This document shows, in pieces, positions 1 to 18,149 of a stretch of DNA of 41,537 nt. How positions within the stretch are numbered: the stretch's first letter is position 1; each line of letters starts with the position of its first letter. Under the pieces are notes generated by a model that saw only the letters and a program-made list of their open reading frames with translations, was not told where the DNA came from and did no database searches. The stretch covers positions 1-41,537 of the forward strand of contig VEPN01000025.1 of the NCBI GenBank assembly GCA_012026835.1. Direction: 5' to 3'. The stretch comes from Candidatus Methanoperedens sp. (lineage in GTDB: Archaea > Halobacteriota > Methanosarcinia > Methanosarcinales > Methanoperedenaceae). Made by a program: the position numbers and the translations under genes.

Positions 1-2019
1 GTTTGTGACATTATTGGTCCCGTCGCTTGTGTTGATATTGGCATGGCGGGCGAATTTTGAGATGTTCACGTCGTTGGGGGCATGGCATGCGATGCAGTCT
101 GTGCCTCCCGCTGAAGACACTTCATGGGGGTCACCATGGCAGGCAAGGCACCGGGCTGGTGTATATTGATTGAATTCCGGATCACTTATAGGATGACTTG
201 TTGGTGCCGTTGTATGACAACTCTGACAATCTTTTATAGTAATATCGTGCATTGCATTGTGACACATCCTGCACTGTATATCCGGGGTGCCATCATTGTT
301 AGTATCAACGTGGGCAAAACCAGGGTTCCAGTCCGGGATATTATCATTGGTGAATGCTTTTCCTAAAGCAGTGGAATTGTGGCAACTGTTGCATTCAGGG
401 GTTGATGGCATATCCTTGTGTTGTATCGGATATGTAGAATTTATTGTGTAATTTATAGGAGGTTGTAACTCCCCCACCCAAATATCTCCGGCACCATTCA
501 AATTATACCCATATATTTGAAGAATCCATAATCCTGTTGCGGGTGTAGTATTGCCATAAATTTCTGGCTTATTTGTAAATGTTGAGCCCTGAGCATATGG
601 AAGGTTTGTAAAGTTTCTTGGGTTGAAATTTGGTGGGTATAAATAAAATCCTATATTTGCTATTCCATCCCAATCAAAGCTTATATTAAAAGAACCTTCT
701 CCAGTAACATTTATCGCATAGTAATCCTGGAATTGCTTGATACTTGCAAAATTCGGATTATACCTATTTATCGTGTCATTAATAGTGTAATTATCAGACT
801 TATAGCCTCCTTGAGGGTTTGGCAATACTAAATCTTTATGACAATCAGTACATAACAAACTTAAATGAGTTCCTCTATTTAATTGTATTGTATTATAACT
901 ATATTGTGGTATAGGCGCATTATTGATACCTCCATTATTGAATGTCACACCACCGAAAGATGAATCTAATCCTCTGTTAGTATGGCAATCCATGCAATTT
1001 ATATTTATATGAGCAGTATTCTGATGAGGATTGCCTGCATTATACATACCTACTACTTCGGTCACGCTATGACAAGTATAACATGCAGAATCCATGTCTG
1101 CGCTTACTATATGACGATCAGGTTGTGATGATCTATGTCGATTCCCGCTACCATGACAGTCCTCACAACCCCATGGAGTAACTTCAAAACTTGAATCCTC
1201 ATTTATTATTTTATTACCAGATTCGGCCTTTATTAAAATGGTATAATTTCCCGGAAAGTATCCTATATTTATGTCCTGTCCTCCATAATAATTAGTTTTA
1301 TGACAACCATCACACCAATCCATACCATAGCCTGAATATGGAGTGCCCCCATAGAAATTAAATCTTCCAATATACAATCCCCTATGATTTATATCCTCTA
1401 TAAGCTGAACGGATTGATTATTGCTTACATAATTTGTACCATCATATGTCCAATATGTGACATTAGCCATAACCTGCGCTCCTGATATTGGATTGCTGTT
1501 ATTGCCATCATCAAGCAATAGCGCATATATATTATTTCTTTGAGTTACACTTTCATTAGGAGTAATAAATCCACTTTGTGGGTCTTCGTCAAAAAACGTC
1601 CAACCCCAGCTTCCGTCCATTACAGAGTTATCTGCACTAGGACCATATATTCCTTGCTGGTACCAATCTTGCCCTATGCTTGTTATGAGAGTGATATTTC
1701 CTAAGACATCGGTTGTTGCCTGTATATTCACCTGATTTATTGGTAAAGAATTTACGCTGGTTATTTGTGAACCGGTTTTGACAGGATTAGTATTCTGTGA
1801 ATCTATCTTTGGTTGAAATGCTGTTGCATGGGTAGAATTGTGACAGGTGTAACATTCTCGATTTCCACTTGAATGATCATAAGCTTGAATGCTTTCGGCT
1901 TGGACAGAATTAACGATTGTTGAAAATAATAATAATAATAAAAATATAAAAATTTTAAATATATTTCTTATGTCATTCGCAATTCTAATTTTATTGATAA
2001 TATAAATTATATTCTCCAT
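1..2019 (-). CDS. Multiheme c-type cytochrome, 3'-partial (runs off the left edge)
   Basis: The frame is open from the ATG at 2019 to the window edge: 673 codons without a stop. The N-terminus has a signal peptide with a poly-leucine core and a likely cleavage after NSVQA. I count 11 CxxCH heme-attachment motifs (CYTCH, CDGCH, CEDCH, CYTCH, CMDCH, CTDCH, CNSCH, CRMCH, CQSCH, CLACH, CIACH). After the first heme there is a heme-poor stretch of about 170 residues that looks like a beta-sandwich, and another heme-free segment (about residues 415-530) resembles a PPC-type beta-sandwich, so hemes and beta domains alternate. The likely role is extracellular electron transfer on the outer face of the membrane. 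The ATG was chosen because it follows the GGATAGG element also found before the other cytochromes here and begins a clean signal peptide. Total heme number is unknown because the 3' end lies outside. Confidence 0.93.
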   Translation of the reverse strand, partial: MENIIYIINKIRIANDIRNIFKIFIFLLLLLFSTIVNSVQAESIQAYDHSSGNRECYTCHNSTHATAFQPKIDSQNTNPVKTGSQITSVNSLPINQVNIQATTDVLGNITLITSIGQDWYQQGIYGPSADNSVMDGSWGWTFFDEDPQSGFITPNESVTQRNNIYALLLDDGNNSNPISGAQVMANVTYWTYDGTNYVSNNQSVQLIEDINHRGLYIGRFNFYGGTPYSGYGMDWCDGCHKTNYYGGQDINIGYFPGNYTILIKAESGNKIINEDSSFEVTPWGCEDCHGSGNRHRSSQPDRHIVSADMDSACYTCHSVTEVVGMYNAGNPHQNTAHININCMDCHTNRGLDSSFGGVTFNNGGINNAPIPQYSYNTIQLNRGTHLSLLCTDCHKDLVLPNPQGGYKSDNYTINDTINRYNPNFASIKQFQDYYAINVTGEGSFNISFDWDGIANIGFYLYPPNFNPRNFTNLPYAQGSTFTNKPEIYGNTTPATGLWILQIYGYNLNGAGDIWVGELQPPINYTINSTYPIQHKDMPSTPECNSCHNSTALGKAFTNDNIPDWNPGFAHVDTNNDGTPDIQCRMCHNAMHDITIKDCQSCHTTAPTSHPISDPEFNQYTPARCLACHGDPHEVSSAGGTDCIACHAPNDVNISKFARHANINTSDGTNNVTN

Positions 2020-2356: not shown

Positions 2357-3964
2357 ATGAAAGTGATCGGAGTATTCCTGCTGATATCATTACTGGTTAG
2401 CATAACTGGTGCAGCAACATATACGAACGCCAGTGAGAAAATATCGAGCAAAATATCAATCCAGGTTAAATCTCAAATGTTGGATAAAGAGAAGGTGCCA
2501 GTTATAATTGTTTTAAAAAATCAAACATCTATTGGTAATTTATCCAGAAAAAATGCTATTCTTTTATCGAAAAATCGTACTTCTATAAACCAGCAGAATC
2601 TTTTAGCCCTTTTAAAAGAAGAAGAAAGTAGAGGAAAAGCAGAAAAAATCAAGCAATTCTGGATAGTGAATGCTATAGCAGTAAATGCCTCACCCGAATC
2701 AATAGAGAAATTATCTAAGAATGAGGAAGTGGAGTATATTCAATCCGACTCAATATTTCACATTCTTGAGTATTCTTCCACTTCTATTTCATCGGGTCAA
2801 ATAGCAAATGCGACTTTCGAAATAAAACGAATAAATACTACAAAGGTCTGGGAAGCCGGAATTGATGGAACAGGGATCAATGTTTCGGTGATTGACACCG
2901 GAATAAATGCCTCGCATCCAGATGTTGCGGGTCGTGTGATTAACTGGGTGGATTATGTAGGCACTCCGCGGCGAGAGTCACCCTATGATGACATTGGACA
3001 TGGAACCCATGTTGCCGGAACCATTGGAGGAAATGGGGTAGGTGGAACAACTACAGGCGTTGCACCGAATGTGAGTTTGCTCATAGCAAAAGTATGCAAT
3101 TTATATGGTTGCTTTAACAGCGATATAATAAATGCAATCCAGTGGTCGGTAGAACAGAATTCCGATATTATCAGCTTATCTCTGGGAGGCTATCGTGATC
3201 TAAACTTAAAGGCCGCAATTGACAATGCCGTAAATATGAATGTTACGGTAATTGCAGCAGCAGGAAATGACGGCCCTGGTTCAGGAACGATTTTGTTTCC
3301 TGCCGGTGAAAAAAATGTGATTGCTGTAGGGGCGGTCGGGAGTTCAGACAACATAGCATCATTTAGTAGCAGAGGACCCATCACAGTGGATGGAGAAGTT
3401 TTGATAAAACCTGATGTGAGCGCACCGGGTGTCAGTATTATTTCATTAAATTATTCCACGAAGGGTTATACCATAAAATCAGGCACCTCAATGGCAACTC
3501 CTCACGTTTCAGGGGCAACTGCTTTAATCCTGCAAGCTGCAAGGAAAAAAGGTATATCTATTTCGCCATATCAAGTAAAAAGCATACTTGAGAACACTTC
3601 AGTAGATTTGGGTAGTGTCGGAAAAGATAATACTTATGGAGCTGGACGAATAGATGTATTTAAAGCTACACAAAATTATATTTTGCCTATGATCAAAGGC
3701 ACCATAATAGATTCCACTACAAAGAGGGGAATTCCTGGGGCAATGGTTACCACAAATACCAGTATCGCGGCAATTGCAGATACATCCGGCTTCTATTCAT
3801 TTATGGTCCCTTCAGGCACCTATAATCTAACCGCTGCCAGTGAACCAAGGTTCTATACTAATATATCTATAGTCACTGTTGTAAATAGAACTGACGTAAC
3901 TCAAGATATTGAGCTCTCCATAAAACCAACAGGCAACATTAGCGGGTTGGTAACAAACGAGTGA
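2357..3964 (+). CDS. Secreted subtilisin-like serine protease (S8) with carboxypeptidase-regulatory-like C-terminal domain
   Basis: This 535-aa exported S8 peptidase has a signal peptide (residues 1-20), an I9-like propeptide (about 30-135) and a catalytic domain. The triad is visible as Asp180 (VIDTG), His215 (GHGTHVAG) and Ser378 (GTSMATPHVSG), with the oxyanion Asn304 in AAGNDG. A CarboxypepD_reg-like beta domain (about 445-535) follows and ends in TGNISGLVTNE. The same domain and ending close the two large cytochromes at 4170-7013 and 7148-12949, so the protease probably goes to the same surface location and may process or turn over those cytochromes. The ATG is preceded by GGAGAG about 11 bases away. 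It lies between two minus-strand cytochrome genes and converges on the second. The fold and catalytic residues are clear; the substrate is not. Confidence 0.95.
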   Translation: MKVIGVFLLISLLVSITGAATYTNASEKISSKISIQVKSQMLDKEKVPVIIVLKNQTSIGNLSRKNAILLSKNRTSINQQNLLALLKEEESRGKAEKIKQFWIVNAIAVNASPESIEKLSKNEEVEYIQSDSIFHILEYSSTSISSGQIANATFEIKRINTTKVWEAGIDGTGINVSVIDTGINASHPDVAGRVINWVDYVGTPRRESPYDDIGHGTHVAGTIGGNGVGGTTTGVAPNVSLLIAKVCNLYGCFNSDIINAIQWSVEQNSDIISLSLGGYRDLNLKAAIDNAVNMNVTVIAAAGNDGPGSGTILFPAGEKNVIAVGAVGSSDNIASFSSRGPITVDGEVLIKPDVSAPGVSIISLNYSTKGYTIKSGTSMATPHVSGATALILQAARKKGISISPYQVKSILENTSVDLGSVGKDNTYGAGRIDVFKATQNYILPMIKGTIIDSTTKRGIPGAMVTTNTSIAAIADTSGFYSFMVPSGTYNLTAASEPRFYTNISIVTVVNRTDVTQDIELSIKPTGNISGLVTNE

Positions 3965-4100
3965 TATCTCTTACTCCTCCCATTCATAAGGTTATTCAAT
4001 AAGGTTTCGCCATTCTGTGCCCAAATGGCTAACCTGAGTTTAGTTTGTACGAAAAAATCTTTTACTGATAAATCAAACAATAGTATATTTCCAAATAAAC

Positions 4101-4147
4101 CACAGAAGAGATAGAGATTTTTAAGCATGGTCTCTATGCTCTCTGTG
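4101..4147. terminator. Inverted repeat between convergent genes, probable bidirectional terminator
   Basis: The arms at 4101-4117 (CACAGAAGAGATAGAGA) and 4131-4147 (TCTCTATGCTCTCTGTG) pair imperfectly around a 13-base loop. It lies between the ends of the subtilase (3964) and the cytochrome (4170), where a shared terminator is expected. The rest of 3965-4169 shows no gene I trust. Confidence 0.45.
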
Positions 4148-4169
4148 ATTTTAACCGTTGGATAGGTTC

Positions 4170-7013
4170 TTAGCTTAAGTTCGTTACAACTCCTGTTATC
4201 GTTCCAGTAGACCTCTTCGCCATAATAACATCCTGGATGACTGTGTCTGGTGCTGTTACAGTCACCTGCGGAACCGTATTATTGACATTATATTCGGGTT
4301 CTTTGGTTGCTATCAGGGTATACGTTCCGTTCGCCAGTCTCAGTGAGTAGAACCCTGTATTATCTGTTATCGCAGAATCGCCTGTGTTTGCAGTTACTGT
4401 TGCTCCCTGAATTTCTCCACCTGAACCATTCCTGGCAGTACCATTTACAAAGCCTTTTGGAAGTTCAATAACAAGGGTAGCATCTTTAGAAATACTCCAG
4501 TCCCCATTGAGGGGATAGTATGGCAGGGAGATATTGGTCTTAGGTGCTGAGGCCATTGCCCTGACACTCACAGTATATGTTCCTTCAGGCAGCCCTGTAG
4601 TATTAATTGTGGCATTCACAGTCTCAATACCTGAGTTAAAACTGCCATCCTGTGCATTCATGCCAGTCCAATCAATCATTAACGACCCTGTATTGTTTTT
4701 TACCTGGTACTGGGCAGCTTCAATTTGCAGAGAAGTCGAGCTGCTCATTGAAGAACCGTTTGCCGTAATACCGACTGGCGAGTTCACTGTGACTGTTGAT
4801 TGGGAAAGGGATAGGTTTTCCAATTTCGGTTTAAAACTATCTGCTAATTTGCGAATATTGTGTACAGTCGTAAAATGACAGCTTGTTGAACATTCGGAAC
4901 TGTTTTTCAAATTATTAATATTGCTTGCATTATGATAATATCCAGGCACGATCGAACCCTGGGAATTAACTACTCTTGGCTCTATACCCGGACCGTGGAA
5001 CGGTTCATCAAGACCATTATATGTTCTGTGGCAGTCATGGCAGCCTGCATATTTGAAACCATCTATCAATGGCCAGCCAGGGTTCTCTATTCTGCCTCTC
5101 GGACCAACCGTACCTTTAACATGGTACATATCAGGGGCATGGCATGAGACACATTGATTTGATCCATGCTTAAATGCCTGCACATTATCAATTATTAGAT
5201 CTGAAGGCTTGGGAGTTCCAGTACCCGCTTTGGTATGGCAATCCTGGCAGTAATATGTGTTGGTCGGGGTCGCCCCGCCGGGTATCATGGGTAGGTCACC
5301 GGTCCGGCCTCCAAAATGACAGGTATTGCAGTCCTCATCAGTAATAGTATTTGGACCCCCTGTCGAATTAAGGTTCGAATGACGTCCAAACATGCTTGTA
5401 TTTACATCATTGCGATCAACTGCATGGCATTGTACACACCCTGTTGTTACAAATGACCTGACATCATGCAGTTTTGCAGCATTTGAACCAGTTACCTTCG
5501 TTCCATGACAACTGAAGCAATCATCAATTATCATTCCCGATGTACTGTGGGATGGGGAAGGAGCGTTTGCAAATTGAGTATTGTGATTTATATGGCAATC
5601 AATGCAATTTGCAATTGTGGTGGTCTCTTTCACATCCCCGTACTCGGTGGTAAGGTTATGGAAGTTGGAATTATTATTTGCCAACGGATCAGCCGGTACG
5701 TCTGTCCTTGTGTGGCATGTCCTGCATGTTGAGTTCCCGGGGAAAGAAGCATTTGAACTGTTATGGTAGAACGAATTAATATTTCGGTACGGGGCCTGGA
5801 ACGGCGAGAAGGCATCCGGTCCGTGGCAGTAATCACAGTAATTCGTTGTTGGAACAGTTGGCAATTTTGCATAATGAGATGTGATATTAGGATAAGGTTG
5901 ACCAATGTCGTTTAACCCCGGATCAAGCTTTACAAGAACATGGCAATCTTCGCAGGATGTTTTGTTGGTCTTCTCTGGTTTGTGTGATGTTATTTGGGGA
6001 GCACTTGGCACGATTCCCTGCACGTGACAGTTGATACATGAATAAATATTAGATCTGTTCATATCCCTCTGATAATGGCATGTCCAGCAATCGCTGTTAT
6101 TGGCAAGACCGTTTCCATCTGTCTTGTTAATATTAACATGCACTCCCTGTCTGAAAGCTGTTATATTGAAATCCTTAGTCATGCTGGTCCCGTGGCAGGA
6201 TATGCAATCTTCAAATACGTTCTGTTCGGTACGGTAATATTTAACGTTACCATTAGCGGTTCCGTTGCCATGGCACCCGTTGCACCAACCCGGGCGGCCT
6301 ACAACATTATAATACCCATTTACTATGTAGCCATAATCTCCATTTGCATCCGAATTGTAGCTTATACCCAGATCATTTTTAATTAATTTCGGATAGTTAG
6401 TCCCGTGAACATTATGGCATGCCGGGCAAGATTGATATGAATCTCTAGATCCATCCATATTAGAATCAAATTGGCCACCCAGCCCATTAATCAAACTTCC
6501 AAAGTCGTCAAGGTGATTCCAATGGATATTCGTGGGATAATCACCATTGTTTAGACCTGCCATTAGCTCATTTATAAAATTAGTCCCGATATTGTTCACA
6601 ATTTTTGGAGAGTTCTGATGCCCCCTGCTTTGGACATATCCAGGAAGAACTCCTACTACCTTTGATTCAATATGACAATAATAACAGAGAGAAAAATTCT
6701 CAGTATTATAACCAGTTGTCAGGGGACCGCTAATCTTTGTGCCATTTAGTTGTCTTATAAACTTTCCATGATCAGGCTCAGCCGAATTTGTGGAATTTAC
6801 ATGACAATCAACGCATTCAATTATATTATGATTGTTTGAATTATAAAGAGAAATATCGATCGGCCGCGGACTGGGGGAAGTATGACACCCACCCGTGAAA
6901 CATGCATCGTTGGAGGATGCATAACCTGGTATGATCATGATGCCAAAAGAAATTAAAGTTAACAGCAATACTATCCTTTTTAAACGTGGAGGAAACATAA
7001 TTGATTGCGACAT
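4170..7013 (-). CDS. Large secreted multiheme c-type cytochrome (17 CxxCH plus 2 variant motifs)
   Basis: This 947-aa protein has an N-terminal signal anchor (hydrophobic residues about 13-31). I count 17 canonical CxxCH sites from CVDCH to CHDCH, plus CFTGGCH (CX4CH) near the N-terminus and CSTSCH (CX3CH) at the end of the heme region, giving up to 19 hemes. After about residue 735 the hemes stop and two beta domains follow. The first is Ig-like (containing GLPEGTYTVSVRA) and the second is CarboxypepD_reg-like, ending TGTITGVVTNLS at the stop. The same pair of domains ends the 1933-aa cytochrome upstream. The likely role is long-range extracellular electron conduction, with the beta domains for anchoring or assembly. 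The start follows GGATAGG by 9 bases. It is co-directional with the 1933-aa cytochrome, but a terminator-like hairpin lies between them. Confidence 0.95.
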   Translation of the reverse strand: MSQSIMFPPRLKRIVLLLTLISFGIMIIPGYASSNDACFTGGCHTSPSPRPIDISLYNSNNHNIIECVDCHVNSTNSAEPDHGKFIRQLNGTKISGPLTTGYNTENFSLCYYCHIESKVVGVLPGYVQSRGHQNSPKIVNNIGTNFINELMAGLNNGDYPTNIHWNHLDDFGSLINGLGGQFDSNMDGSRDSYQSCPACHNVHGTNYPKLIKNDLGISYNSDANGDYGYIVNGYYNVVGRPGWCNGCHGNGTANGNVKYYRTEQNVFEDCISCHGTSMTKDFNITAFRQGVHVNINKTDGNGLANNSDCWTCHYQRDMNRSNIYSCINCHVQGIVPSAPQITSHKPEKTNKTSCEDCHVLVKLDPGLNDIGQPYPNITSHYAKLPTVPTTNYCDYCHGPDAFSPFQAPYRNINSFYHNSSNASFPGNSTCRTCHTRTDVPADPLANNNSNFHNLTTEYGDVKETTTIANCIDCHINHNTQFANAPSPSHSTSGMIIDDCFSCHGTKVTGSNAAKLHDVRSFVTTGCVQCHAVDRNDVNTSMFGRHSNLNSTGGPNTITDEDCNTCHFGGRTGDLPMIPGGATPTNTYYCQDCHTKAGTGTPKPSDLIIDNVQAFKHGSNQCVSCHAPDMYHVKGTVGPRGRIENPGWPLIDGFKYAGCHDCHRTYNGLDEPFHGPGIEPRVVNSQGSIVPGYYHNASNINNLKNSSECSTSCHFTTVHNIRKLADSFKPKLENLSLSQSTVTVNSPVGITANGSSMSSSTSLQIEAAQYQVKNNTGSLMIDWTGMNAQDGSFNSGIETVNATINTTGLPEGTYTVSVRAMASAPKTNISLPYYPLNGDWSISKDATLVIELPKGFVNGTARNGSGGEIQGATVTANTGDSAITDNTGFYSLRLANGTYTLIATKEPEYNVNNTVPQVTVTAPDTVIQDVIMAKRSTGTITGVVTNLS

Positions 7014-7022
7014 GATAATCTC

Positions 7023-7029
7023 CCTATCC
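7023..7029 (-). promoter_or_regulatory. GGATAGG leader element / ribosome binding site
   Basis: GGATAGG followed by GAG lies on the minus strand 9 bases before the ATG at 7013. It matches the elements at 2031-2037, 12959-12965 and 18757-18763. Confidence 0.5.
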
Positions 7030-7089
7030 TAAACTCAGTAGATTACCACTATGAATTATTCATTAGATAAAGCTTTCGAATTTATCTCA

Positions 7090-7130
7090 AAAAAAAGGAA
7101 GGGGATACTCAACTCATTAGGTTGAGCATC
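7090..7130 (-). terminator. Intrinsic-type terminator after the 1933-aa cytochrome gene
   Basis: On the minus strand the arms 7130-7121 and 7113-7104 form a 10-bp stem with one G-U pair and a 7-base loop. A CCCTTCC stretch and a run of eight T's follow. It begins 18 bases past the stop at 7148, fitting a terminator that separates the two cytochrome transcripts. Confidence 0.6.
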
Positions 7131-7147
7131 TTATTGGCAACCTTAAC

Positions 7148-10100
7148 TTAGCTCGTTACAACTCCGGTTATCGTTCCTGTGGCTTTCTTTATTATGAAGA
7201 TATCCTGTTGTGTTGTTCCGGGTGCCGTCACTCCTACATTCGGGATTGAGATCGCATTGAATTCAGGATTCTTGGTTGCATTCAGAGTGTATGTTCCGGT
7301 TGGCAGGCTTAGGGAATAGTTACCCGAACCATCTGTCACTGCAGATACAGTGCCAGCCGTTACCGTTACTCCTGGAACCAGTTCGCCAGCAATACTGCCG
7401 TTCTTTACAGTACCGTTGATAAAGCCTTTCGGAGCAGTAACTGTCAGAGTTGCTACGCCTGATGAACTCCATTGCTTACCGATATCCATGCCGCGGACAT
7501 ATATTGTATACGTACCTTCAGATAATCCGGAGATACTTGCAGTAACAGGTTCTGATGCGGCATTAAATACACCATCTGCTGCATTCATCTGATTCCCTTT
7601 TCCATACAGATTTGGATCTGAGCCTGGATTCTGGCCAATGAAATATTCTGCACCGCGGACTCTGCTTGCCAGGCCTGAAGCATCATTAATTGTCGATGTA
7701 ATTGTTACAGGTGTTCCCTGTGTTACAGTCAACGTTGCAGCAACACCGTTCAAATAAACAGTGGGGGTTGCTGGTGGAGTCCCTGCATAATTAAAGCTCC
7801 AGTTATGCATATTGCGATTATCGAATTGTCCTCCCGGGATGTGGCAAGCGGCTCCGCTGCCGCAGGTTAAGCTTACATGACTTGTGCCTGTTAGATTCGG
7901 TGCTTTATACTGGTCAGCCTTTGTTGTATGGCAGTCTTTGCATTGGAATGTGACAGGCATGCCCAATGAACCATTGTGCAGGTTATCAGCATCTCCATCT
8001 ACATGGCACTGGACGCAAGTTCCGGTCGGAGTATGCGCATTTGACATAAACGTGGCATTCCCATAGCTGCTGTTGGATGGATTATGGCAGTTTGCACACT
8101 CTTTATTATTTGCCGAGGCATCGGCCAGAGTAAAGAACCCGAATCTTGGCATAGTTGTCTGGTTAACTGTGGGTTTCAACAATGATGAATTTGTACCATA
8201 ATGGCTCACAGTTGCATTTTGTGTAGATGAAATGTTATTATTACTATTGATATGGCAGACTGAGCAATACACTCCTGCTGTTATTTCAGTTCCTGCCCTG
8301 CCGGGGTTCATATCTAACTTGGGTGGTTTATGATCCTGGATTATTGGAGCAGTGAAATTACCATCTGTATGACAATCTGTACAGAGCTTTGGATTCTTGT
8401 AATTTGCAGGATGGCCACTGGCTGGAGGTGTACCATCACTATGGCATGCATAACAGGCTTTGTTAATATCTGCGGTTGCATTGTTCAGGCCCTTATGTAT
8501 GCCGTTCTGGATACTGGCTACATTAACGAGTTTGGGTGCCGAACCTCCAACATCATGGCAGGCAACGCAGTTAGCTCCTCCTGCAGCCCCTACATTGAGG
8601 CTGTGGCTGTAATTCAGGGAGGTCTTTGAGTATGCACCAAGTTGGGCATGGCATGTTTCACAAACATTATCCTTGTATCCTGCTGTCAGGTAACCTGTAT
8701 GGTCTACCCAGCCGGGGACACCTGTGTTATCTACTGTGATTGCCGGCGGGACAGGGCTTAACTGGTTACCCCTGTAATTCGTATTTGCAGGATCGTTGTA
8801 ATGGCAATCTGCACACCACTGGGTGTTTGTAATTGCCCCATTCCTTGTGTTGCTCGGATCAAGAAGCAGGTTGTTTATCCTGCCAAGAGCAGTTGTGTTA
8901 TGTCTTGTATCGCTGTGGCAATAGAAGCAAGAGCCAGACTCTGATGTCCAGAATGTACCCCACAACGTACCGTTGGAGAGACTGGAACTGTGTTTCAGCG
9001 GATTGGGGATAATAGGTGCGTTACCGAATCCTGATAATTGGGTCTGATGACAATTTGTACAGTTAACTGCATTCGTCTTTGTTGTGGCAAAGGTCGCTCC
9101 TCCCTGTTCCAGGTATTGTACAGGGTGGATATTCTTATTCGTACTCAGATGGCACTTTGTACAATCCACGGTTCCGTTATGCTGCTCTTTATTTTTGAGT
9201 GTAGCAGAACCAGTCGAATTATGACAGGTGAGACAATATGCAGAACTGGGCAGGCTTAATGCCGGTTTAGCGAGTGTGCTATTATGGATTCTGCCTGTAG
9301 AATGGCAATCAGCACAGTCGGGGTTGGTGGATGCATAATTGGTTGAGTGGTTGGATATGCTTGCATTCCATGCAGCATCTACCATTTCTGTGCTGAATAC
9401 ACTGCTGCCCTGATGACATAAGGTACAGTTGGCACTGCCTCCTTTAACATATTTCTGATCAGCTCCCTTTTTATCGCCATAGTGACTGACATTAGCATAG
9501 CCAGAACTTGGGACTTCAGGATCGCTGTTTGACCTAATCATTTCTGGTTTAACATGGCAGTTAATGCATGAATCGTTAATGTTTGTATACTGTTTAGTCT
9601 TCAGATCCATACCGCCTGAATTATGTTCACTGACTATTAGAGCACTGAAATTACCATCTGTATGACAATCTGTACAGAGCTTTGGACTCTTGTAATTTGC
9701 AGGATGACCGCTTGGAGCTGTTCCATCGCCGTGGCATGCATAACAGGCTTTATTGATATCAGTTGATGCTCCGTTCAGGTTGCTGTGTATACTGTTCTGA
9801 AGTACAGCGCTATCGACATGCTTTGGAGCTGTTCCTGAAATATCATGGCAACTGACGCAATTAGCACCCCCAGCCGTTCCCACGTTGAGGCTATGAGAAT
9901 AGTTAAGAGATGTTTTTGATGTGGTGCCGTTCAAGGCATGGCATGTTTCACAAACGCTGTCCTTGTATCCTGTAGTAAGATAGCCGCTGTGGTTGACCCA
10001 GCCAGGGACACCACCTGTGTTATCTACTGTTATCGCTGGCGGAACAGGGCTTAACTGGTTACCCCTGTAATTCGTATTTGCAGGATCGTTGTAATGGCAA

Positions 10101-12949
10101 TCTGCACACCACTGGGTGTTTGTAATTGCCCCATTCCTTGTGTTGCTCGGATCAAGAAGCAGGTTGTTTATCCTGCCAAGAGCAGTTGTGTTATGTCTCG
10201 TATCGCTATGGCAGTAGAAGCAAGAGCCAGATTCTGAGATCCAGAATGTACCCCACAACGTGCCGTTGGAGAGACTGGAACTATGTTTCAAGGTATCGGG
10301 GATGATTGGTGCGCTGGTGAAGTTTGCCAATTTAACCTGGTGACAATTGGTACAGTTAACTGCATTCGTCTTTGTTGTTGCAAAGGTCATGCCGCCCTGT
10401 TCAAGGTATTGTACTGGGTGGATATTCTTATTCGTGTTTACATGGCACTTTGTACAATCTACGGTTCCATTGTGCTGCTCTTTATTCTTCAGAGTGGCTG
10501 ATCCTGTGGAATTATGACAGGTGAGACAATATGCTGAATTGGGCAGGCTGAATGCAGGTTTGGTAAGTGTACTGTCATGGATTCTGCCTGTTGAATGGCA
10601 ATTTGCACAACCTGGATTGGTTGATGGATAATTGGTTGAGTGGTTGGATATGCTTGCATTCCATGCAGCGTTGACCATTTCTGAACTGAAGGCACTGCTG
10701 CCCTGATGACATAAGGCACAGTTGGATACACCGCCAATATTGTAAGGCGACACACCGGTCTTGTTGCTTCCGTAATGGCTTACATTCGCTATATTGGATT
10801 TTGGTCCTCCGGGGTCACTGTTCGTGGTAATCATTTCGCTCTTCATATGACAGTTCACACAGGAAGTGTTGGTGTCTGCCTGAGGCTTTGTCCTGATATC
10901 TGTCCCTGCTGAGTTGTGTTCGCTGACTATGAGAGCATTGAAATTACCGCCGCCCGTATGGCATTGTGTACATTTTCTGGGAACATTATAACTGTCCGGG
11001 TGGCTGCTTGCGGGGATTTCTGAGGCATCAACTTTACCATCTCCGGAAACTGTGCTGTTGGTGTGGCAGGCCCAGCATATCTTGTTATCCACATTATAAC
11101 TGCCTGCATTTCCACCATTGTTGAGGTTAAGGTGTATTGATGCTTTTATGTTAGCTACATCTACTTTTGCCTGGCCTCCACTAATGTCATGGCAGCTGAC
11201 ACAATCTGGATTGCCGGCTTTGCCTATCCCAGTATTATGCTGGAACTCACCCATGTTGGCTCCTATGCTCAGTAGCGAGCCGTGACAGGCCTTGCAATTT
11301 TGATCCTGATATTCCTGGGATGTAGCGAAAGAGTGATTATAGTATCCTGTAGAAATTCCTTTCCAGTTCGTGCCGTTGGTTATTTCTGGCGGGAGCAACA
11401 GTCCTGCCGAGGTGAACGCCGAACTCATCTGGGTATAATTGCTATCTCCCTTATAGTGGCAGCTTGCGCATGAGGTATTCGTGCCTATTGTACCGTACAT
11501 CTGGTAACCTGGAGCAAACTGGAGAATCCTTCCAAGCGGACTGAGATCATGAAGAGTACTGCTATGGCAGTATATGCATGCTGTTTGCTGTGATGTCCAG
11601 TGGCTTCCCCACTTTGTGCCTGCCAGGGGGTCATCGCTATGGTTCATTGGTTTCTTGATTTGAGGCGCATCAGGTCCTGAATAACTTCCTGCTTTTGGCT
11701 GCGCCTTGAGGGTATTAAGGAAAGTGGAATTTTGATGGCATGAAGTACAGTTGCCCTGATTCGAGCTTCCGTGGTTCACATATCCGGCACTTTGTGAGAA
11801 CACCTGTATCGCATGCACATCATCACTGTGGCAGAGCGTACAATTTACGCTCCCGCTGTGCTTATTGTAATCTGCGTGGCATGCCTTGCATTGACTATCC
11901 TCGGTCACATCATTTTTAATAAATCGCTGTGATGCATCAGGTTTTGTAATATTGTGCATGGGTCCGTGGCATACTATACAGGGAACTGTTGATGTTGGGG
12001 TATGATATTTATCATACGCTCCGGCCGTACTATTAGAATAATTGCTCACCACGCCATTCAAGGTGGACTTATCTGTAATATCAGTCCTTGTATGGCAGCC
12101 ATTGCATGAGCCGATGGTTATTGTTCCGGCATTATGGTTCGCATAACTCGTACCAGGGTTATGACATGCTGAGTTGTCACAACGGATGCTCTGGTGAGTA
12201 TCAACTGTATAGAAATCCTTTGTACCTGGAGTGCTGCTTGTCGGCTGGCCATCATAACCATTATGGCATACAGTACAATAATCATCAGCCCAGCCATTGG
12301 TTGAAATATCTGTATTATGATCGGTTCTCTCGCTGGTTATTTTTTCCCAGCTTATTGTATATGGTGAATTGGCTGGCGCATTTCCTCGATTCCCCGGGTT
12401 TTTACCGCTATGCTGGTTATTGCATCCTCCACTTGAGTAAGCACATCCCCACCAGTTGTATATGAACGTAGTGTTGGAAGAAACACTCCCTATATCAGCC
12501 TTGACACGCCATTGTCCATATGCCCTCCTGTTGTCCACGTTACCATAAAAGCTGGCAAGACCCTGTGAATCTGTCACATCCGTCCCGGTTATGCCCGAAG
12601 CCGTTCCATTAGGATAGAAAAGGGCGAAATTGATAGTTCTTCCTGCCAGAGGTGTGCCGTTGCCATCCATGTATAAAGCCTGTACACCAACAGTCGTTTG
12701 TTTGCCTGTCCATCTGTTGTTGGTAGTGCCCCAATCATTGGCCGGAAGACCAAAACCTGTGCCCGTAGCGGTTGCACCTGTTACCTGCGGGTCATCAAGA
12801 ACAATATACCTGTTTGTCGCAACCTTAATAGATTCATTAGCCGCACTTGCCGCATTAACCGATATGATCATTGCAAACAAAATTGTTATCAAAATTATTC
12901 CAGTTTTTGTTGACCTGCTTGTGAATATAAAGTTATTTCGTTCGGGCAT
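7148..12949 (-). CDS. Giant multiheme c-type cytochrome (40 CxxCH plus 2 variant motifs) with internal 12-heme repeats
   Basis: This 1933-aa exported cytochrome has a signal peptide (hydrophobic residues about 17-33, cut near SAANES). An N-terminal Ig-like (Big_1-type) beta domain covers about residues 60-165. I count 40 CxxCH sites plus CDNSACH (CX4CH) and CGSGAACH (CX5CH). The hemes fall into a diverged unit (sites 1-12), two nearly identical units of about 431 residues (sites 13-24 and 25-36) and a partial fourth unit (37-40). The C-terminus has an Ig-like domain and a CarboxypepD_reg-like domain ending TGTITGVVTS, as in the 947-aa cytochrome. It would conduct electrons across or along the cell surface. 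It lies just downstream of ccsA-resB, the machinery that attaches such hemes. The start follows GGATAGG. Family and location are clear; the electron partner is not. Confidence 0.96.
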   Translation of the reverse strand: MPERNNFIFTSRSTKTGIILITILFAMIISVNAASAANESIKVATNRYIVLDDPQVTGATATGTGFGLPANDWGTTNNRWTGKQTTVGVQALYMDGNGTPLAGRTINFALFYPNGTASGITGTDVTDSQGLASFYGNVDNRRAYGQWRVKADIGSVSSNTTFIYNWWGCAYSSGGCNNQHSGKNPGNRGNAPANSPYTISWEKITSERTDHNTDISTNGWADDYCTVCHNGYDGQPTSSTPGTKDFYTVDTHQSIRCDNSACHNPGTSYANHNAGTITIGSCNGCHTRTDITDKSTLNGVVSNYSNSTAGAYDKYHTPTSTVPCIVCHGPMHNITKPDASQRFIKNDVTEDSQCKACHADYNKHSGSVNCTLCHSDDVHAIQVFSQSAGYVNHGSSNQGNCTSCHQNSTFLNTLKAQPKAGSYSGPDAPQIKKPMNHSDDPLAGTKWGSHWTSQQTACIYCHSSTLHDLSPLGRILQFAPGYQMYGTIGTNTSCASCHYKGDSNYTQMSSAFTSAGLLLPPEITNGTNWKGISTGYYNHSFATSQEYQDQNCKACHGSLLSIGANMGEFQHNTGIGKAGNPDCVSCHDISGGQAKVDVANIKASIHLNLNNGGNAGSYNVDNKICWACHTNSTVSGDGKVDASEIPASSHPDSYNVPRKCTQCHTGGGNFNALIVSEHNSAGTDIRTKPQADTNTSCVNCHMKSEMITTNSDPGGPKSNIANVSHYGSNKTGVSPYNIGGVSNCALCHQGSSAFSSEMVNAAWNASISNHSTNYPSTNPGCANCHSTGRIHDSTLTKPAFSLPNSAYCLTCHNSTGSATLKNKEQHNGTVDCTKCHVNTNKNIHPVQYLEQGGMTFATTKTNAVNCTNCHQVKLANFTSAPIIPDTLKHSSSLSNGTLWGTFWISESGSCFYCHSDTRHNTTALGRINNLLLDPSNTRNGAITNTQWCADCHYNDPANTNYRGNQLSPVPPAITVDNTGGVPGWVNHSGYLTTGYKDSVCETCHALNGTTSKTSLNYSHSLNVGTAGGANCVSCHDISGTAPKHVDSAVLQNSIHSNLNGASTDINKACYACHGDGTAPSGHPANYKSPKLCTDCHTDGNFSALIVSEHNSGGMDLKTKQYTNINDSCINCHVKPEMIRSNSDPEVPSSGYANVSHYGDKKGADQKYVKGGSANCTLCHQGSSVFSTEMVDAAWNASISNHSTNYASTNPDCADCHSTGRIHNSTLAKPALSLPSSAYCLTCHNSTGSATLKNKEQHNGTVDCTKCHLSTNKNIHPVQYLEQGGATFATTKTNAVNCTNCHQTQLSGFGNAPIIPNPLKHSSSLSNGTLWGTFWTSESGSCFYCHSDTRHNTTALGRINNLLLDPSNTRNGAITNTQWCADCHYNDPANTNYRGNQLSPVPPAITVDNTGVPGWVDHTGYLTAGYKDNVCETCHAQLGAYSKTSLNYSHSLNVGAAGGANCVACHDVGGSAPKLVNVASIQNGIHKGLNNATADINKACYACHSDGTPPASGHPANYKNPKLCTDCHTDGNFTAPIIQDHKPPKLDMNPGRAGTEITAGVYCSVCHINSNNNISSTQNATVSHYGTNSSLLKPTVNQTTMPRFGFFTLADASANNKECANCHNPSNSSYGNATFMSNAHTPTGTCVQCHVDGDADNLHNGSLGMPVTFQCKDCHTTKADQYKAPNLTGTSHVSLTCGSGAACHIPGGQFDNRNMHNWSFNYAGTPPATPTVYLNGVAATLTVTQGTPVTITSTINDASGLASRVRGAEYFIGQNPGSDPNLYGKGNQMNAADGVFNAASEPVTASISGLSEGTYTIYVRGMDIGKQWSSSGVATLTVTAPKGFINGTVKNGSIAGELVPGVTVTAGTVSAVTDGSGNYSLSLPTGTYTLNATKNPEFNAISIPNVGVTAPGTTQQDIFIIKKATGTITGVVTS
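8267..9568 (-). repeat. 12-heme repeat unit, second near-identical copy
   Basis: This stretch runs from the CINCH heme site to just before CSVCH and encodes sites 25-36 in the same order and spacing as the unit at 9569-10861. The heme-motif start points are offset by 1302 bp, about 9 bp more than the offset between the previous two units. Confidence 0.85.
8751..8905 (-). repeat. 155-bp exact direct repeat, copy 1
   Basis: 8751-8905 reads the same, base for base, as 10044-10198, at an offset of 1293 bp. Flanking sequence is similar but has synonymous and other differences. This points to recent duplication or gene conversion between the two 12-heme units. Confidence 0.9.
9569..10861 (-). repeat. 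12-heme repeat unit, first near-identical copy
   Basis: This unit encodes heme sites 13-24, from CVNCH to CTDCH, in 1293 bp (431 codons). Its protein is largely identical to the next unit. A third, diverged unit (sites 1-12) lies upstream in the gene in the same register, for example CIYCHSSTLHDLSPLGRI aligning with CFYCHSDTRHNTTALGRI. Confidence 0.85.
10044..10198 (-). repeat. 155-bp exact direct repeat, copy 2
   Basis: This is the second copy of the exact 155-bp repeat at 8751-8905. It spans the segment after CFYCH and through CADCH of the first near-identical 12-heme unit. Confidence 0.9.
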
Positions 12950-13070: not shown

Positions 13071-13922
13071 TCACGAAGTCAAATAATCTGTATGAAGCCC
13101 GCTGTACACATATCCTACACCGAATAAGCTGAACGCAAGAACGATGATGCAAAAAATAATGAACCATGCAATCCTCTTTCCCGTCCACCCAGCATTCATC
13201 CGCAGGTGCAGGCAAATCCCCAAAACAAACCATGCTATCAGCGACCAGGTCTCAGTAGGGTCCCAGCCCCAATACCTCCCCCATGTCTGGTTAGCCCATA
13301 TCGCCCCGGCCCCAATCATTATAGTAAGGAACAGGAGGCCCGATGCCACGAAACTGTACATCAGGTCATCCATGACTTTCAAATCCGGCAGCCTGTCATA
13401 AAACGATTCCTCATTTTCAAAACCTGCTTCAACCCTCCTTGAATGCCTCTCTTTCACGATATAAAGGACTGAGACACCCACGGCCACAAGTATCGACCCG
13501 AAAGCCAGATTCGCAAAAACCACATGTGCTATAAGCCAGTAACTGCGAAGCGCGGCAGGCAGAATCTGGATATCCCTCGAATATGTCAGGCTCACACCCA
13601 TCAATAAAAACGATATCGGCATTATTATAAATCCTGCTATTTTTATTTTTTCATATTTATGCTGTACCAGCAGGAAAATCACTACTGAAAACCATGCGTA
13701 TTTGGATAAAACCTCATACATGCTTATATATGGCCCATGCCCGACCTCGATCCATCTCAGGGCGATAGAAACGCTGTGGAGTAACAGTCCGATAATCGCG
13801 CTGTTGACAGCAAAACCGATTTTTTCGTTTTTCCTGAAAACCAGGCAGTATATATACAGTATCGAACTGAGCGCATATAATGTGGTCGCTGCAAGATACA
13901 TTATATAATCAATCTGTGACAT
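13071..13922 (-). CDS. ccsA: Cytochrome c biogenesis protein CcsA (CcmC/CcsA heme-handling family)
   Basis: This 283-aa polytopic membrane protein has about eight hydrophobic segments. It carries the tryptophan-rich WWD heme-binding signature around residues 209-230 (WGRYWGWDPTETWSL), and conserved-looking histidines at about 62, 133 and 239 are candidate heme ligands. Together with ResB it forms the System II machinery that moves heme across the membrane and attaches it to CxxCH motifs. The start overlaps the end of resB by 14 bases, indicating translational coupling. Its position directly upstream of a 40-heme cytochrome gene on the same strand fits that job. The CcmC/CcsA family is secure, and the ResB partner points to System II rather than System I. 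Confidence 0.93.
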   Translation of the reverse strand: MSQIDYIMYLAATTLYALSSILYIYCLVFRKNEKIGFAVNSAIIGLLLHSVSIALRWIEVGHGPYISMYEVLSKYAWFSVVIFLLVQHKYEKIKIAGFIIMPISFLLMGVSLTYSRDIQILPAALRSYWLIAHVVFANLAFGSILVAVGVSVLYIVKERHSRRVEAGFENEESFYDRLPDLKVMDDLMYSFVASGLLFLTIMIGAGAIWANQTWGRYWGWDPTETWSLIAWFVLGICLHLRMNAGWTGKRIAWFIIFCIIVLAFSLFGVGYVYSGLHTDYLTS

Positions 13923-15339
13923 TTGAGAGCCTCTCTTTGATCTTATCTATAATATCGCTGAATTCTTCGTTATATAAAGACCTGAACTTATCTGCCCTTC
14001 CCCCAATATATATTTCTGTTGCACCGTCAGCCCCGTCCTTAACTACCTCGACCCAGACCCTTTTGGGGATTACGAAGAAAATTATCGTGAGGCTTAGAGT
14101 TATTAATCCAAGCCCGGCATATACAAGCAACGTTCCATTGTCCTTCACCACATAGAAATTGCTCCAGTATTTTATATCATAAAAACCAAGGTACATATTA
14201 TTCCACGGTATCTTCACAGTATCATTAAGCCTGAGCGTCCCATCGTATATTTCCTCTCCCTGGTCAAATATCTTCATGAACATGATAGGGGTCTGCTTCG
14301 TATTTCCGGATTCCTCAATCCCTGTCAATGGCGCGGTCATGTAAACCATCAGCCCGCCCTCAAGCCCTGTATCCGCCATGTCAAACGACGCTACATACCT
14401 TCCGCTGCTATCGGGGTCCGAAGCAGTAATATACGAACCTGAATATATCGTTCCATCCGGGTTCATCAAAACCAAAAGAGGCGCCATTCCATAGACATTT
14501 CCAAGAAAAGTATAATCCCTGTAAGTCACCAGGTTATTTGAATAGACAATGTCGGTTTTCATTTCATTGCCATTCTCTGAGATAATGAGCTTTCCCGCCG
14601 CCCCTCTTGGAGTATCCGTACTATCTATATAATCTGGATAGAATTTATCAAGTTTGATGTCAAATTTCTGGTGGTTCTCATAAAATAATGGCCCCTCGTT
14701 AATGAACATATAATTCCCGTGGTCTTCTTGAAGGCTCTGTCCCTCGATTAGCCGCATGTCTCCTTCCATCCTTCCCAGGCTTCCATATACAGTCGCCAGG
14801 ATGATAAAAAGTATGCAAATGTGGAATAACGGGACACCAAATACACCATACCTGTTTTTTTCTGCGAATATCTTGTTGCCTTCCAGACTCAATCTATATC
14901 CATGCGATTGTAGAACAGAATCAATATGTGAAATAACAATTTTATCCTCCTTTGCGGTACTGATTTCGCTTCTGGTTTCAAGCCCGTTTATCTGATCTTT
15001 ATTCTGGAACTGCTGATTTCTCTTTAACTTTCGAAGCGCCGATACAAGCATATTTCTCGTACAGAAAGATGTATTCAAAAAGAGAAGGGAACAAAGGCCA
15101 ATGAAAACAGCAGATGAAAACATATTTGTAAATCCAAGAAAATCAAATATTTCTGCCTGCGTGGGATGGTTGGTCTTCCATGCATTATATACTTCAGGCT
15201 TAAGCTGTGATTTTTGGGGTATATGGGTTCCTATTATCGAAACCAGGATTATCGAAGATATCAGAATTACAGCAAGTTTTCGAGATTGGAAAAAAGATGA
15301 GATTTTTTTTCCCGGAGAAAAATCTGAAATCGTATCCAT
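13909..15339 (-). CDS. resB: Cytochrome c biogenesis protein ResB/Ccs1
   Basis: This 476-aa membrane protein has the ResB architecture: a hydrophobic segment at about residues 23-42 followed by THIPQKSQL, a second at about 75-92, a third at about 165-185, a long external domain (about 190-420) and a last membrane span (about 423-445) before a short cytoplasmic tail. ResB is the partner of CcsA in the System II cytochrome c synthetase and is thought to present apocytochrome while heme is attached. It is first in a two-gene operon with ccsA, overlapping it by 14 bases. Divergently, 68 bases away, lies a thioredoxin-like gene that may supply reduced cysteines. Sequence conservation in this family is low, so the call rests on topology, the THIPQ region and context. 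Confidence 0.88.
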   Translation of the reverse strand: MDTISDFSPGKKISSFFQSRKLAVILISSIILVSIIGTHIPQKSQLKPEVYNAWKTNHPTQAEIFDFLGFTNMFSSAVFIGLCSLLFLNTSFCTRNMLVSALRKLKRNQQFQNKDQINGLETRSEISTAKEDKIVISHIDSVLQSHGYRLSLEGNKIFAEKNRYGVFGVPLFHICILFIILATVYGSLGRMEGDMRLIEGQSLQEDHGNYMFINEGPLFYENHQKFDIKLDKFYPDYIDSTDTPRGAAGKLIISENGNEMKTDIVYSNNLVTYRDYTFLGNVYGMAPLLVLMNPDGTIYSGSYITASDPDSSGRYVASFDMADTGLEGGLMVYMTAPLTGIEESGNTKQTPIMFMKIFDQGEEIYDGTLRLNDTVKIPWNNMYLGFYDIKYWSNFYVVKDNGTLLVYAGLGLITLSLTIIFFVIPKRVWVEVVKDGADGATEIYIGGRADKFRSLYNEEFSDIIDKIKERLSNVTD

Positions 15340-16034: not shown

Positions 16035-18149
16035 TCAACCAGTGAAATAAGCCATAACCACCCGGATTGCTTCCTGTCCTGTAATTGTGCCGCCGAAGGA
16101 ATCCATTACTGCCTGCACCGCCTCGCTGCCCTGCACGATGCCATCAGTACCTGCGTACCGGGAGACGATATTTTCGGAACCTGATGTATCAATTCCAAAA
16201 ATCACAAGACCGTTAGTACTATCAACTACATAAGCATAATTTCCAGCCACTGCCACGCTATTTAATTCACTTCCGGTATCGTAGCTACCTTTTATGGTGG
16301 GAAATGCGGGATTGCTTACATCCAATATCAAAAGACCGTTATTACCATTAGCAACATAGGCATAATTTCCAGCCACTGTCACGCTCCCTGAATAACTTGC
16401 GATACTAAATCTACCTTTTAAAGCGGGAGACGCGGGATTGCTTACATCCAATATCAAAAGACCGTTTATAGAATCAACCACATAAGCATATTTTCCGGCC
16501 ACCGCCACTCTGAAGAAATCACCTTTAGTATCGTATCTGCCTTTTAGGGCAGGAGACGCGGGATTGCTTACATCCAATACCAAAAGACCGTTAGAACGAT
16601 TAGCTACATAAGCATAATTTCCAACCACTGCTAAACTTATTGAGTCACTTCTTGTATCGTATCTGCCTTTTAAGGCAGGAGACGCGGGATTGCTTACATC
16701 CAGTACCAAAAGACCGTTAGAATTAAGCACATAAGCATATTTTCCAGCCACTGCCACGTTTTTTGAATAACTTGCGGTATCGTATCTGCCTTTTAAGGCA
16801 GGAGACACGGGATTGCTAATATCCAATATCAAAAGACTGTTAGAACCATTAGCTACATAAGCATAATTTCCAGCTACTTCCTTTAATTGACCTGCTGTAT
16901 CGTATCTGCTTTTTAAAGTGGGAGACGCGGGATTGCTAACATCCATTATTACAAGACCATAATACCGATCATCCACATAAGCATAATTTCCCGCCACTGC
17001 CACGTTACTTGAATAACTTACGGTATCGTATCTGCCTTTTAAGGTGGGAGACGCGGGATTGCTAACATTTAATATTATGAAACCATGTTCATTAGCAGTT
17101 AAATAAGCATAATTACCATCCACTATCATGCCTGAACCTGTGCTATTGTTACTGCCTTTAAGAACAGGTGACGCGGGATTGCTAACATCCAATATCAAAA
17201 GACCGTTACCACTATCAACCACATAAGCATAATTATCAGTTACTGCTACCCTCACTGAATCACCTTTGGTACGGTATTTGCTTATAAATACAGGAGATGC
17301 AGGATTGCTCACATTTAATATCACAAGACCCTGGGTACCATCTGCTACATAAGCATAATTTCCAACCACTGCCACATCAAACACCTGGCCATGTGCCCTG
17401 GATGCTTCCTCATTTGCGAAATCGAACGCTTCACCGAAACTGTTTTTAAAGACAGGAGATTCAGGATTGCTTATATCCAATATTCTAAAACCGCGATTAC
17501 CATTAACTACATAGGCATAATTTCCAGCCACTGTCACGTCTCTTGCATCTCCCATAGATTCAAAAGGTATTGCATATCTTCCTTTTACCGCAGGGGATGC
17601 GGGATTGCCCACATCAAATATCAAAAGACCGTTAGAACCATCAGCCAAATAAGCATAATTTCCAGCCACTGCCACGTTTGATGGGGAACTTAAATTATCG
17701 TATCTGCTTTTTAAGGCAGGTGATGCAGGATTGCTCACATCAAATATCAAAAGACCGTTTTTATTATTGCAAACCACATAAGCGTAATTTCCAGATATTT
17801 TAATATCACGAATTAGGCAATTGTTTTCCATCCGTTTTATCTGGACCGGAGCGCTCCTGTTGCTAATATCAAGCACAACAAAATCCATCCCCTGATTTAT
17901 ATACGCATAATTCCCGGAAACTGCTGCAGCATCAGTACTTCCGCCAAAATGACCGACCTTTGTAATATTTAGATCATCCGTAGCTGCAAGCATATTAGAA
18001 GCATTCGCATGATCGAGCAACGCGTCGTCTCCACCACCCGCCGCCAGCGTTGCAGCACCCGCCAGAAATATTGCCAGCGCCATTATTCCCACTATGATTT
18101 TGAGGACACGCCCTCTACAATTTTTAATTTTTGAAATCATTTTTTTCAC
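16035..18149 (-). CDS. Secreted LVIVD-repeat beta-propeller protein
   Basis: This 704-aa protein starts with a basic signal peptide (hydrophobic residues about 16-37). It then has 13 repeats of about 42 residues with the pattern (L/F)xI(L/F/M)DVSNPASPxxKGRYDT...VAVAGNYAYVV...G, and a partial fourteenth. These are LVIVD repeats, one propeller blade each, so 13-14 blades suggest two seven-bladed propellers or one large ring. The last 35 residues (EAVQAVMDSF, then EAIRVVMAYF) look like two short helices similar to archaeal dockerin-like tails. Such proteins are usually surface or extracellular with unknown ligands. Several blades are nearly identical at DNA level (units of about 126 bp), so copy number probably varies. 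It has no clear operon partner: the convergent neighbour ends at 15881 and the next gene upstream is over 300 bases away. Confidence 0.88.
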   Translation of the reverse strand: MKKMISKIKNCRGRVLKIIVGIMALAIFLAGAATLAAGGGDDALLDHANASNMLAATDDLNITKVGHFGGSTDAAAVSGNYAYINQGMDFVVLDISNRSAPVQIKRMENNCLIRDIKISGNYAYVVCNNKNGLLIFDVSNPASPALKSRYDNLSSPSNVAVAGNYAYLADGSNGLLIFDVGNPASPAVKGRYAIPFESMGDARDVTVAGNYAYVVNGNRGFRILDISNPESPVFKNSFGEAFDFANEEASRAHGQVFDVAVVGNYAYVADGTQGLVILNVSNPASPVFISKYRTKGDSVRVAVTDNYAYVVDSGNGLLILDVSNPASPVLKGSNNSTGSGMIVDGNYAYLTANEHGFIILNVSNPASPTLKGRYDTVSYSSNVAVAGNYAYVDDRYYGLVIMDVSNPASPTLKSRYDTAGQLKEVAGNYAYVANGSNSLLILDISNPVSPALKGRYDTASYSKNVAVAGKYAYVLNSNGLLVLDVSNPASPALKGRYDTRSDSISLAVVGNYAYVANRSNGLLVLDVSNPASPALKGRYDTKGDFFRVAVAGKYAYVVDSINGLLILDVSNPASPALKGRFSIASYSGSVTVAGNYAYVANGNNGLLILDVSNPAFPTIKGSYDTGSELNSVAVAGNYAYVVDSTNGLVIFGIDTSGSENIVSRYAGTDGIVQGSEAVQAVMDSFGGTITGQEAIRVVMAYFTG

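Follow-up and report, generated by a model that had tools for sequence, protein, structure and literature searches.

The question addressed here is how methane-oxidizing archaea hold their giant extracellular cytochromes at the cell surface; fusion to S-layer domains or membrane helices is known for some of these cytochromes in anaerobic methanotrophic archaea (ANME). The DNA analyzed is a 41,537-nucleotide contig of "Candidatus Methanoperedens" sp. (VEPN01000025.1, referred to in its entirety as the window), in which a secreted subtilase and two multiheme cytochromes end in the same CarboxypepD_reg domain (the tail) followed by one additional beta strand and a stop codon. The tail is probably a C-terminal docking tag that binds non-covalently, by donor-strand complementation, to a dedicated acceptor protein and thereby anchors its carriers at the surface.

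Described systems of surface attachment

Several described systems share individual features with this arrangement. Cellulosomes are attached by cohesin-dockerin pairing to anchor proteins with S-layer homology (SLH) domains (SdbA and its relatives), where, as proposed for the tail, a few anchors, which can carry SLH domains, non-covalently bind a module present on a large number of secreted proteins. In the present case there is neither dockerin nor cohesin, the proposed contact is a strand inserted into an incomplete transthyretin-like domain, and each acceptor has a single site, with no multisite scaffoldin seen. Subunits of chaperone-usher pili and of the archaeal thread (Saci_0406) have an incomplete beta sandwich into which another subunit inserts the completing strand; in the thread, which documents donor-strand complementation in archaea, N-terminal strands join like subunits (PMC9715654). 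Those strands are N-terminal extensions that enter the next identical subunit and build a filament, whereas the tail strand is C-terminal, occurs on many different proteins, and would enter a dedicated acceptor lacking its first strand, with no chaperone or usher seen.

Tags at the extreme C terminus are also well described. The PGF-CTERM and PEF-CTERM archaeosortase signals likewise tag the C termini of surface proteins in archaea, subtilases and cytochromes among them, but they depend on a transpeptidase and on a membrane helix whose end is basic, neither of which the tail has. The C-terminal domain of the type IX secretion system (T9SS) of Bacteroidota is also a folded beta domain that serves as a sorting tag at the end of many cargoes; it belongs to another domain family and another phylum, there is no evidence of processing for the tail, and the partner of the tail is a strand-deficient domain. 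The split CnaB2 pair (SpyTag/SpyCatcher) supplies one strand of a transthyretin/CnaB-like fold in trans, and CnaB folds are among the structural matches of the tail. That pair is engineered and forms an isopeptide bond, whereas here the split is natural, the first strand is the one missing, and no conserved isopeptide residues were seen in the acceptor. The parts of ANME reviews and comparative genomics that cover S-layer fusion cytochromes, dockerin and cohesin, and PGF/PEF-CTERM signals (PMC9012536, PMC5244752) make no mention of this domain or of a strand-based tag, and a search confined to the open-access literature, with subscription papers outside its scope, found no description of such strand-based surface attachment.

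A C-terminal tail shared by unrelated secreted proteins

The initial annotation of the window had noted that three unrelated secreted proteins (ending at 3964, 4170, and 7148) finish in a CarboxypepD_reg-like domain, TGxIxGxVT, and an immediate stop and that both cytochromes carry an Ig-like domain ahead of it. The open reading frames (ORFs) and domain matches confirm these features. Each protein contains one PF13620 match above the curated cutoff, reaching profile position 79 to 81 of 82, after which come an extra TG[TN]I[TS]G[VL]VT, one to three residues, and the stop. In the alignment, the tail of the 947-amino-acid (aa) cytochrome shares 60% and 42% identity with the remaining two, and the Ig-like domains of the two cytochromes are 38% identical (BLASTP, E 1e-15). 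Pyrrolysine (TAG) readthrough or a frameshift past the stop was considered and rejected: the stops are TGA, TAA, and TAA, and no further repeat was seen downstream.

A profile search recovered 85 tails in 15 genomes, of which 13 are Methanoperedens-type and two (G048 and G051, the only ones beyond the genus) belong to a different family of the same order; tail-bearing genomes (cited here by G number, with C for contigs and L for loci) encode 1 to 16 such proteins. Four further tails, all ending at the same residue, lie in the window's own genome, on a 1095-aa cytochrome (C23), on a NosD beta-helix protein (C68), and on two fragments at contig edges. Given this census and the family-wide one, a chance origin of the shared ending is excluded. 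Only 7 of the 84 strong full-length matches in 34 family genomes extend past the strand, and the other 77 end within 8 residues of the stop. Four of the exceptions, all in G028, continue into a further domain and one into an Ig-like stretch; the remaining two lie inside proteins whose true end bears a second tail (L076, 18038 to 19828, in G004 and L106, 3161 to 5005, in G013).

The stop falls exactly three residues after the last V in 55 of the 85 tails and two to four residues after it in 76. Across the same set, the motif K-P-T-G-x-I-x-G-x-V has K or R at position -3 in all 85, both G residues in all 85, I in 83, V in 76, and P in 69, and, among 75 nonredundant tails, no part of the domain is conserved better than the terminal L-x-x-K-P-T-G-[NT]-I-[ST]-G-x-V. 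The carriers are 36 multiheme cytochromes and 49 other proteins, some of the latter fragments; 37 noncytochrome carriers were scanned and included 11 subtilases, 8 NosD/beta-helix proteins, 3 CARDB proteins, 2 metallophosphoesterases, and 2 proteins of purple-acid-phosphatase type. An N-terminal hydrophobic segment is present in 52 of the 58 carrier ORFs of at least 200 aa, and most of the six failures look truncated at the start; the carriers are thus not mainly cytoplasmic. The 85-tail set extends what was noted for three proteins to a wide range of unrelated secreted proteins with the same end point. A degenerate DNA pattern of the motif, run against 84,980 species, matched 41 stretches. 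In every Methanoperedens match, strain BLZ2 among them, a stop follows 11 to 16 codons past the K, and the bacterial matches look like chance. Viral spread of the tail was rejected as an idea after the same pattern gave no match in 2.9 million viral contigs.

The terminal strand

In the tail alignments, the terminal strand is a copy of the domain's own strand A, with which it has GxIxGxV in common. A 645-aa protein of the same genome (C32) consists of four tandem CarboxypepD_reg repeats joined by TGTIAGKVTN, and the terminal strand of the tail therefore corresponds to the first strand of a next repeat. An AlphaFold2 model of the isolated tail of the 947-aa cytochrome (44-row alignment; mean predicted local distance difference test [pLDDT] score 90) forms strand A from residues 8 to 17 and leaves the last ~13 residues as coil with a pLDDT of about 72, so that the donor strand is predicted to be unpaired within its own chain. 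The view of the initial annotation that the final strand is the first strand of an absent repeat agrees with both the homology and the model. In a Foldseek search, the tail domain matched the transthyretin-like domain of carboxypeptidase D (5aq0, E 3.8e-4) and related transthyretin-like and CnaB-type folds.

Signals of other known kinds are absent. None of the 85 tails has a membrane helix (19-residue hydropathy within the last 120 aa peaks at 1.81, with a median of 1.06), and no NCBIfam CTERM model matched the window carriers, which therefore do not have a PGF-CTERM or archaeosortase-type ending. A sortase (LPXTG-type) reading of KPTG was rejected given the missing helix and an end only two to four residues past the strand in 76 of 85 tails. 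No dockerin or cohesin Pfam family was matched by the three window proteins or the scanned acceptors or appears among the families listed for the carriers, and no NCBIfam model of TIGR04183/TIGR04131 type matched the window carriers, the T9SS machinery itself lying outside this search. A second subtilase in the window (34354 to 39174, minus strand, 1606 aa) has a PGF-pre-PGF domain (E 3e-41) and a PGF-type membrane tail (...PGFGLLQAVAMIIAMYFFVRKRG); the same enzyme class thus has a second anchoring route in the same window. The earlier suggestion of a docking or sorting signal distinct from PGF-CTERM holds as regards distinctness, and docking is supported by the genomic evidence, physical docking being the step that we infer.

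Homologs of the tailed cytochromes indicate which position the tail occupies. In G011 and G026 the homologous cytochrome has an Ig-like domain followed by a membrane helix and a basic end in place of the tail, and the homolog in G022 likewise ends in a membrane helix with a basic end. Judging from these homologs and the PGF-type subtilase, the tail takes the position of the anchor in other surface proteins.

The candidate acceptor

The gene directly after the tailed C23 cytochrome in the window's own genome (L219, 5115 to 6734) encodes a signal peptide, a CarboxypepD_reg domain starting ...ASA followed by GCVVGPGQTPIAGALVKL (mature N-domain at residues ~38 to 118), and then about 430 residues of beta repeats. 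Relatives of this candidate acceptor were found in 11 of the 34 family genomes. Nine genomes of the family (G000, G004, G005, G006, G007, G013, G023, G024, and G030) encode it as a free protein with a signal peptide, and a tenth acceptor, in G048 of the other family, runs off contig C50 and continues on C26, the two contig ends sharing exactly 127 nucleotides (nt). These 10 genomes have one acceptor each, and all of them bear tails. With G028 left out of the counts because its copies are fused, the acceptor occurs in 9 of 13 tail-positive and 0 of 20 tail-negative genomes of the family and in 10 of 15 and 0 of 170, respectively, across the order. In seven of nine testable cases (G000, G004, G005, G006, G023, G024, and G048), an intact tail gene directly precedes the acceptor gene, on the same strand and at a distance of 97 to 270 nt; the G048 acceptor follows a tail-bearing subtilase by 174 nt. 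The G013 acceptor is at a contig edge.

In all 10 acceptors, strand A is missing, the domain starting after or within it. Between the likely signal peptide cut and a conserved G-A there are 10 to 14 residues in the acceptors versus at least 18 in controls, four of four other secreted proteins with an N-terminal CarboxypepD_reg domain retaining the full strand A. The rear halves vary among species: in Methanoperedens they comprise about four beta repeats, and some match DUF5719. The G048 acceptor instead has three SLH domains (PF00395, E 3e-45). SLH modules are known surface anchors of bacteria. These are the only SLH domains found in G048, and none was found in ten other genomes searched, nine of them Methanoperedens-type; their restriction to the acceptor (L271/L295) suggests the acquisition of a bacterial-type anchor.

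An isopeptide crosslink of CnaB-like type was considered and rejected, as the K of the tail is conserved but no conserved acidic partner was seen in the acceptor alignment. An element AGGATAGG(A) stands upstream of all nine acceptor starts checked; in L219 it lies immediately ahead of 5115. Of 61 tail genes, 16 are preceded by AGGATAGG, among them that of the 947-aa cytochrome of the window, these being raw counts uncorrected for background. The element may act in both kinds of gene as a signal for translation or expression.

Natural fusions of tail and acceptor

Neither a free tail nor a free acceptor was found in G028. Instead, in three cytochromes and one subtilase the tail strand is followed without a break by the acceptor domain with its repeats (...KPIYALSGKVTNATSGLGIDGALVKLDAYSQYN...); the G028 homolog of the C23 cytochrome has an acceptor module with its own strand A. 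In an AlphaFold2 model of the tail-acceptor fusion (pLDDT 96), the stretch modeled as coil when the tail stands alone forms a strand (residues 92 to 101) ahead of the acceptor domain, where it is predicted to take the strand A position. The alignment for this model was made without the free acceptors, which MAFFT had placed on the homologous first half. The split pair thus resembles, in anatomy and model, what a cut immediately past that strand would make of the fused protein. Terminal strands read PTGxIxGxV, in contrast to YxLSGxVTN in the cis-fused strands.

Proposed docking mechanism

In the proposed mechanism, a carrier ends in a complete transthyretin-like CarboxypepD_reg domain plus a spare copy of strand A that lacks a partner in its own chain. 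The dedicated secreted acceptor presents, right after its signal peptide, a CarboxypepD_reg domain without strand A, and the spare strand would fill this gap, the two chains together forming the tandem repeat that is a single covalent chain in G028. The rest of the acceptor, be it the three SLH domains of G048 or the repeats of Methanoperedens, would hold the complex at the surface or matrix. With strands docking onto one acceptor, one acceptor gene could serve many cytochromes, proteases, and beta-helix proteins. The proposal draws on features read from the genomes, namely, the tail family with its constant end point, the acceptor with its absent strand, their co-occurrence and gene order, the fusions, and the exchange with membrane anchors, and on modeling in which the strand is unpaired when terminal and paired when fused. 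From these we infer that the tail binds the acceptor in trans; that the acceptor anchors at the surface in Methanoperedens as well is suggested by analogy. The wider form of the proposal has somewhat better than even support: one strand-deficient receptor per genome may display, through insertion of their C-terminal strands, at least a dozen proteins, the cytochromes of extracellular electron transfer among them, and exchange of the receptor's rear half between species may change the attachment of the whole set. If true, this would give carriers a general non-covalent route to attachment that can be tested directly on two small soluble domains, and the naturally split transthyretin-like domain could serve as a protein-tagging pair.

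Several observations weigh against docking onto the acceptor. Genomes of the same genus share ancestry, so that the Fisher values (1.9e-5 for the family) overstate independence. The G030 acceptor is not beside a tail gene, and the tail adjoining the G007 acceptor is broken. The signal peptide cut sites were placed by eye, and the acceptors may keep two to six residues of the end of strand A. No recognizable acceptor was found, by consensus protein or by SLH, in five tail-bearing drafts, of which G012 and G022 are 95% complete and G025, G026, and G051 less so; there is therefore room for self-docking or for a second acceptor type. The Methanoperedens acceptors have no SLH domain, membrane helix, or other recognized anchor, and anchoring there therefore rests on analogy. 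Finally, the models cover single chains, and the pairing in G028 is in cis.

Alternative explanations

The tail could instead be a signal recognized by a machinery dedicated to export or processing, as in the T9SS, its strand read and perhaps cut by an enzyme, with the acceptor simply another surface protein and the tailed subtilase possibly the processing protease. In the T9SS pattern, many unrelated cargoes share a conserved Ig-like or transthyretin-like domain at the C terminus, and the strong conservation of K-P-T-G and the 11 subtilases among 37 noncytochrome carriers point the same way. This explanation is nevertheless unlikely, given that the carriers have ordinary N-terminal hydrophobic signals and that an export signal leaves unexplained both a partner lacking exactly the strand supplied and the fusions.

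A similarly low weight is given to docking of tails on each other, in which the spare strand would displace or extend strand A of another tail to form homo- or heteropolymers, such as chains of cytochromes, with the acceptor as base or cap. The GxIxGxV common to spare strand and strand A, the clustering of carriers in gene arrays, and the tail-bearing genomes with no detected acceptor would fit such polymers. The modeled tail domain, however, already contains a complete strand A and thus offers no open groove, the terminal PTGxIxGxV differs consistently from the internal [GR][YF]INGTV, and it is the acceptor that is specifically open.

Less probable still is that the ending is a scar, left when an ancestral fusion like those of G028 was divided between two genes, with a functionless strand remaining on the upstream half. 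Tail and acceptor in series do reproduce the G028 fusion, and their genes are often adjacent; a scar would decay, yet the strand is the most conserved block, has a fixed length on some 85 varied proteins, and is unlike the cis version. That the tail is an ordinary tandem-repeat array stopping by accident at a repeat boundary is scarcely credible. Although the same genome does have arrays with TGTIAGKVT between CarboxypepD_reg repeats (C32), that boundary is where 77 of 84 strong matches stop, the proteins are unrelated and come from two families, and another protein of that genome (C42) ends in this domain without the extra strand.

Other features of the window

The coordinates of the three tail carriers and their domains are collected in Table 1.

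Table 1. Tail carriers of the window and their C-terminal domains
Feature	Position	Strand	Evidence
Secreted subtilase (Peptidase_S8, propeptide I9), tail carrier	2357..3964	+	ORF; PF00082 E 1.5e-60, PF05922
Subtilase tail domain (CarboxypepD_reg), spare strand included	3683..3961	+	PF13620 E 2.2e-8; alignment
Subtilase terminal (putative donor) strand KPTGNISGLVTNE, then TGA	3923..3961	+	ORF translation, tail alignment
947-aa multiheme cytochrome, 17 CxxCH, tail carrier	4170..7013	-	ORF, Pfam scan
Ig-like domain preceding tail, 947-aa cytochrome	4466..4811	-	BLASTP E 1e-15 vs 1933-aa cytochrome counterpart
Tail domain, 947-aa cytochrome	4173..4469	-	PF13620 E 1.1e-7; AlphaFold2 mean pLDDT 90, final ~13 residues coil
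947-aa cytochrome terminal (putative donor) strand RSTGTITGVVTNLS, then TAA	4173..4214	-	Translation, alignment, AlphaFold2
1933-aa multiheme cytochrome, 40 CxxCH, tail carrier	7148..12949	-	ORF, Pfam scan
Ig-like domain preceding tail, 1933-aa cytochrome; same domain before membrane anchor in G011 homolog	7430..7777	-	
Tail domain, 1933-aa cytochrome	7151..7438	-	PF13620 E 1e-8
1933-aa cytochrome terminal (putative donor) strand KATGTITGVVTS, then TAA	7151..7186	-	Translation, alignment

A cytochrome c assembly pair (Cytochrom_C_asm and ResB; 13071 to 15339, minus strand) lies directly upstream of the cytochrome genes. Another multiheme cytochrome (1 to 2019, minus strand) runs off the end of the contig, its C terminus lying beyond it. 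Farther along the window are a 704-aa LVIVD beta-propeller protein with 13 repeats (16035 to 18149, minus strand) and a TIR-domain protein that is possibly related to defense (19393 to 20643, plus strand).

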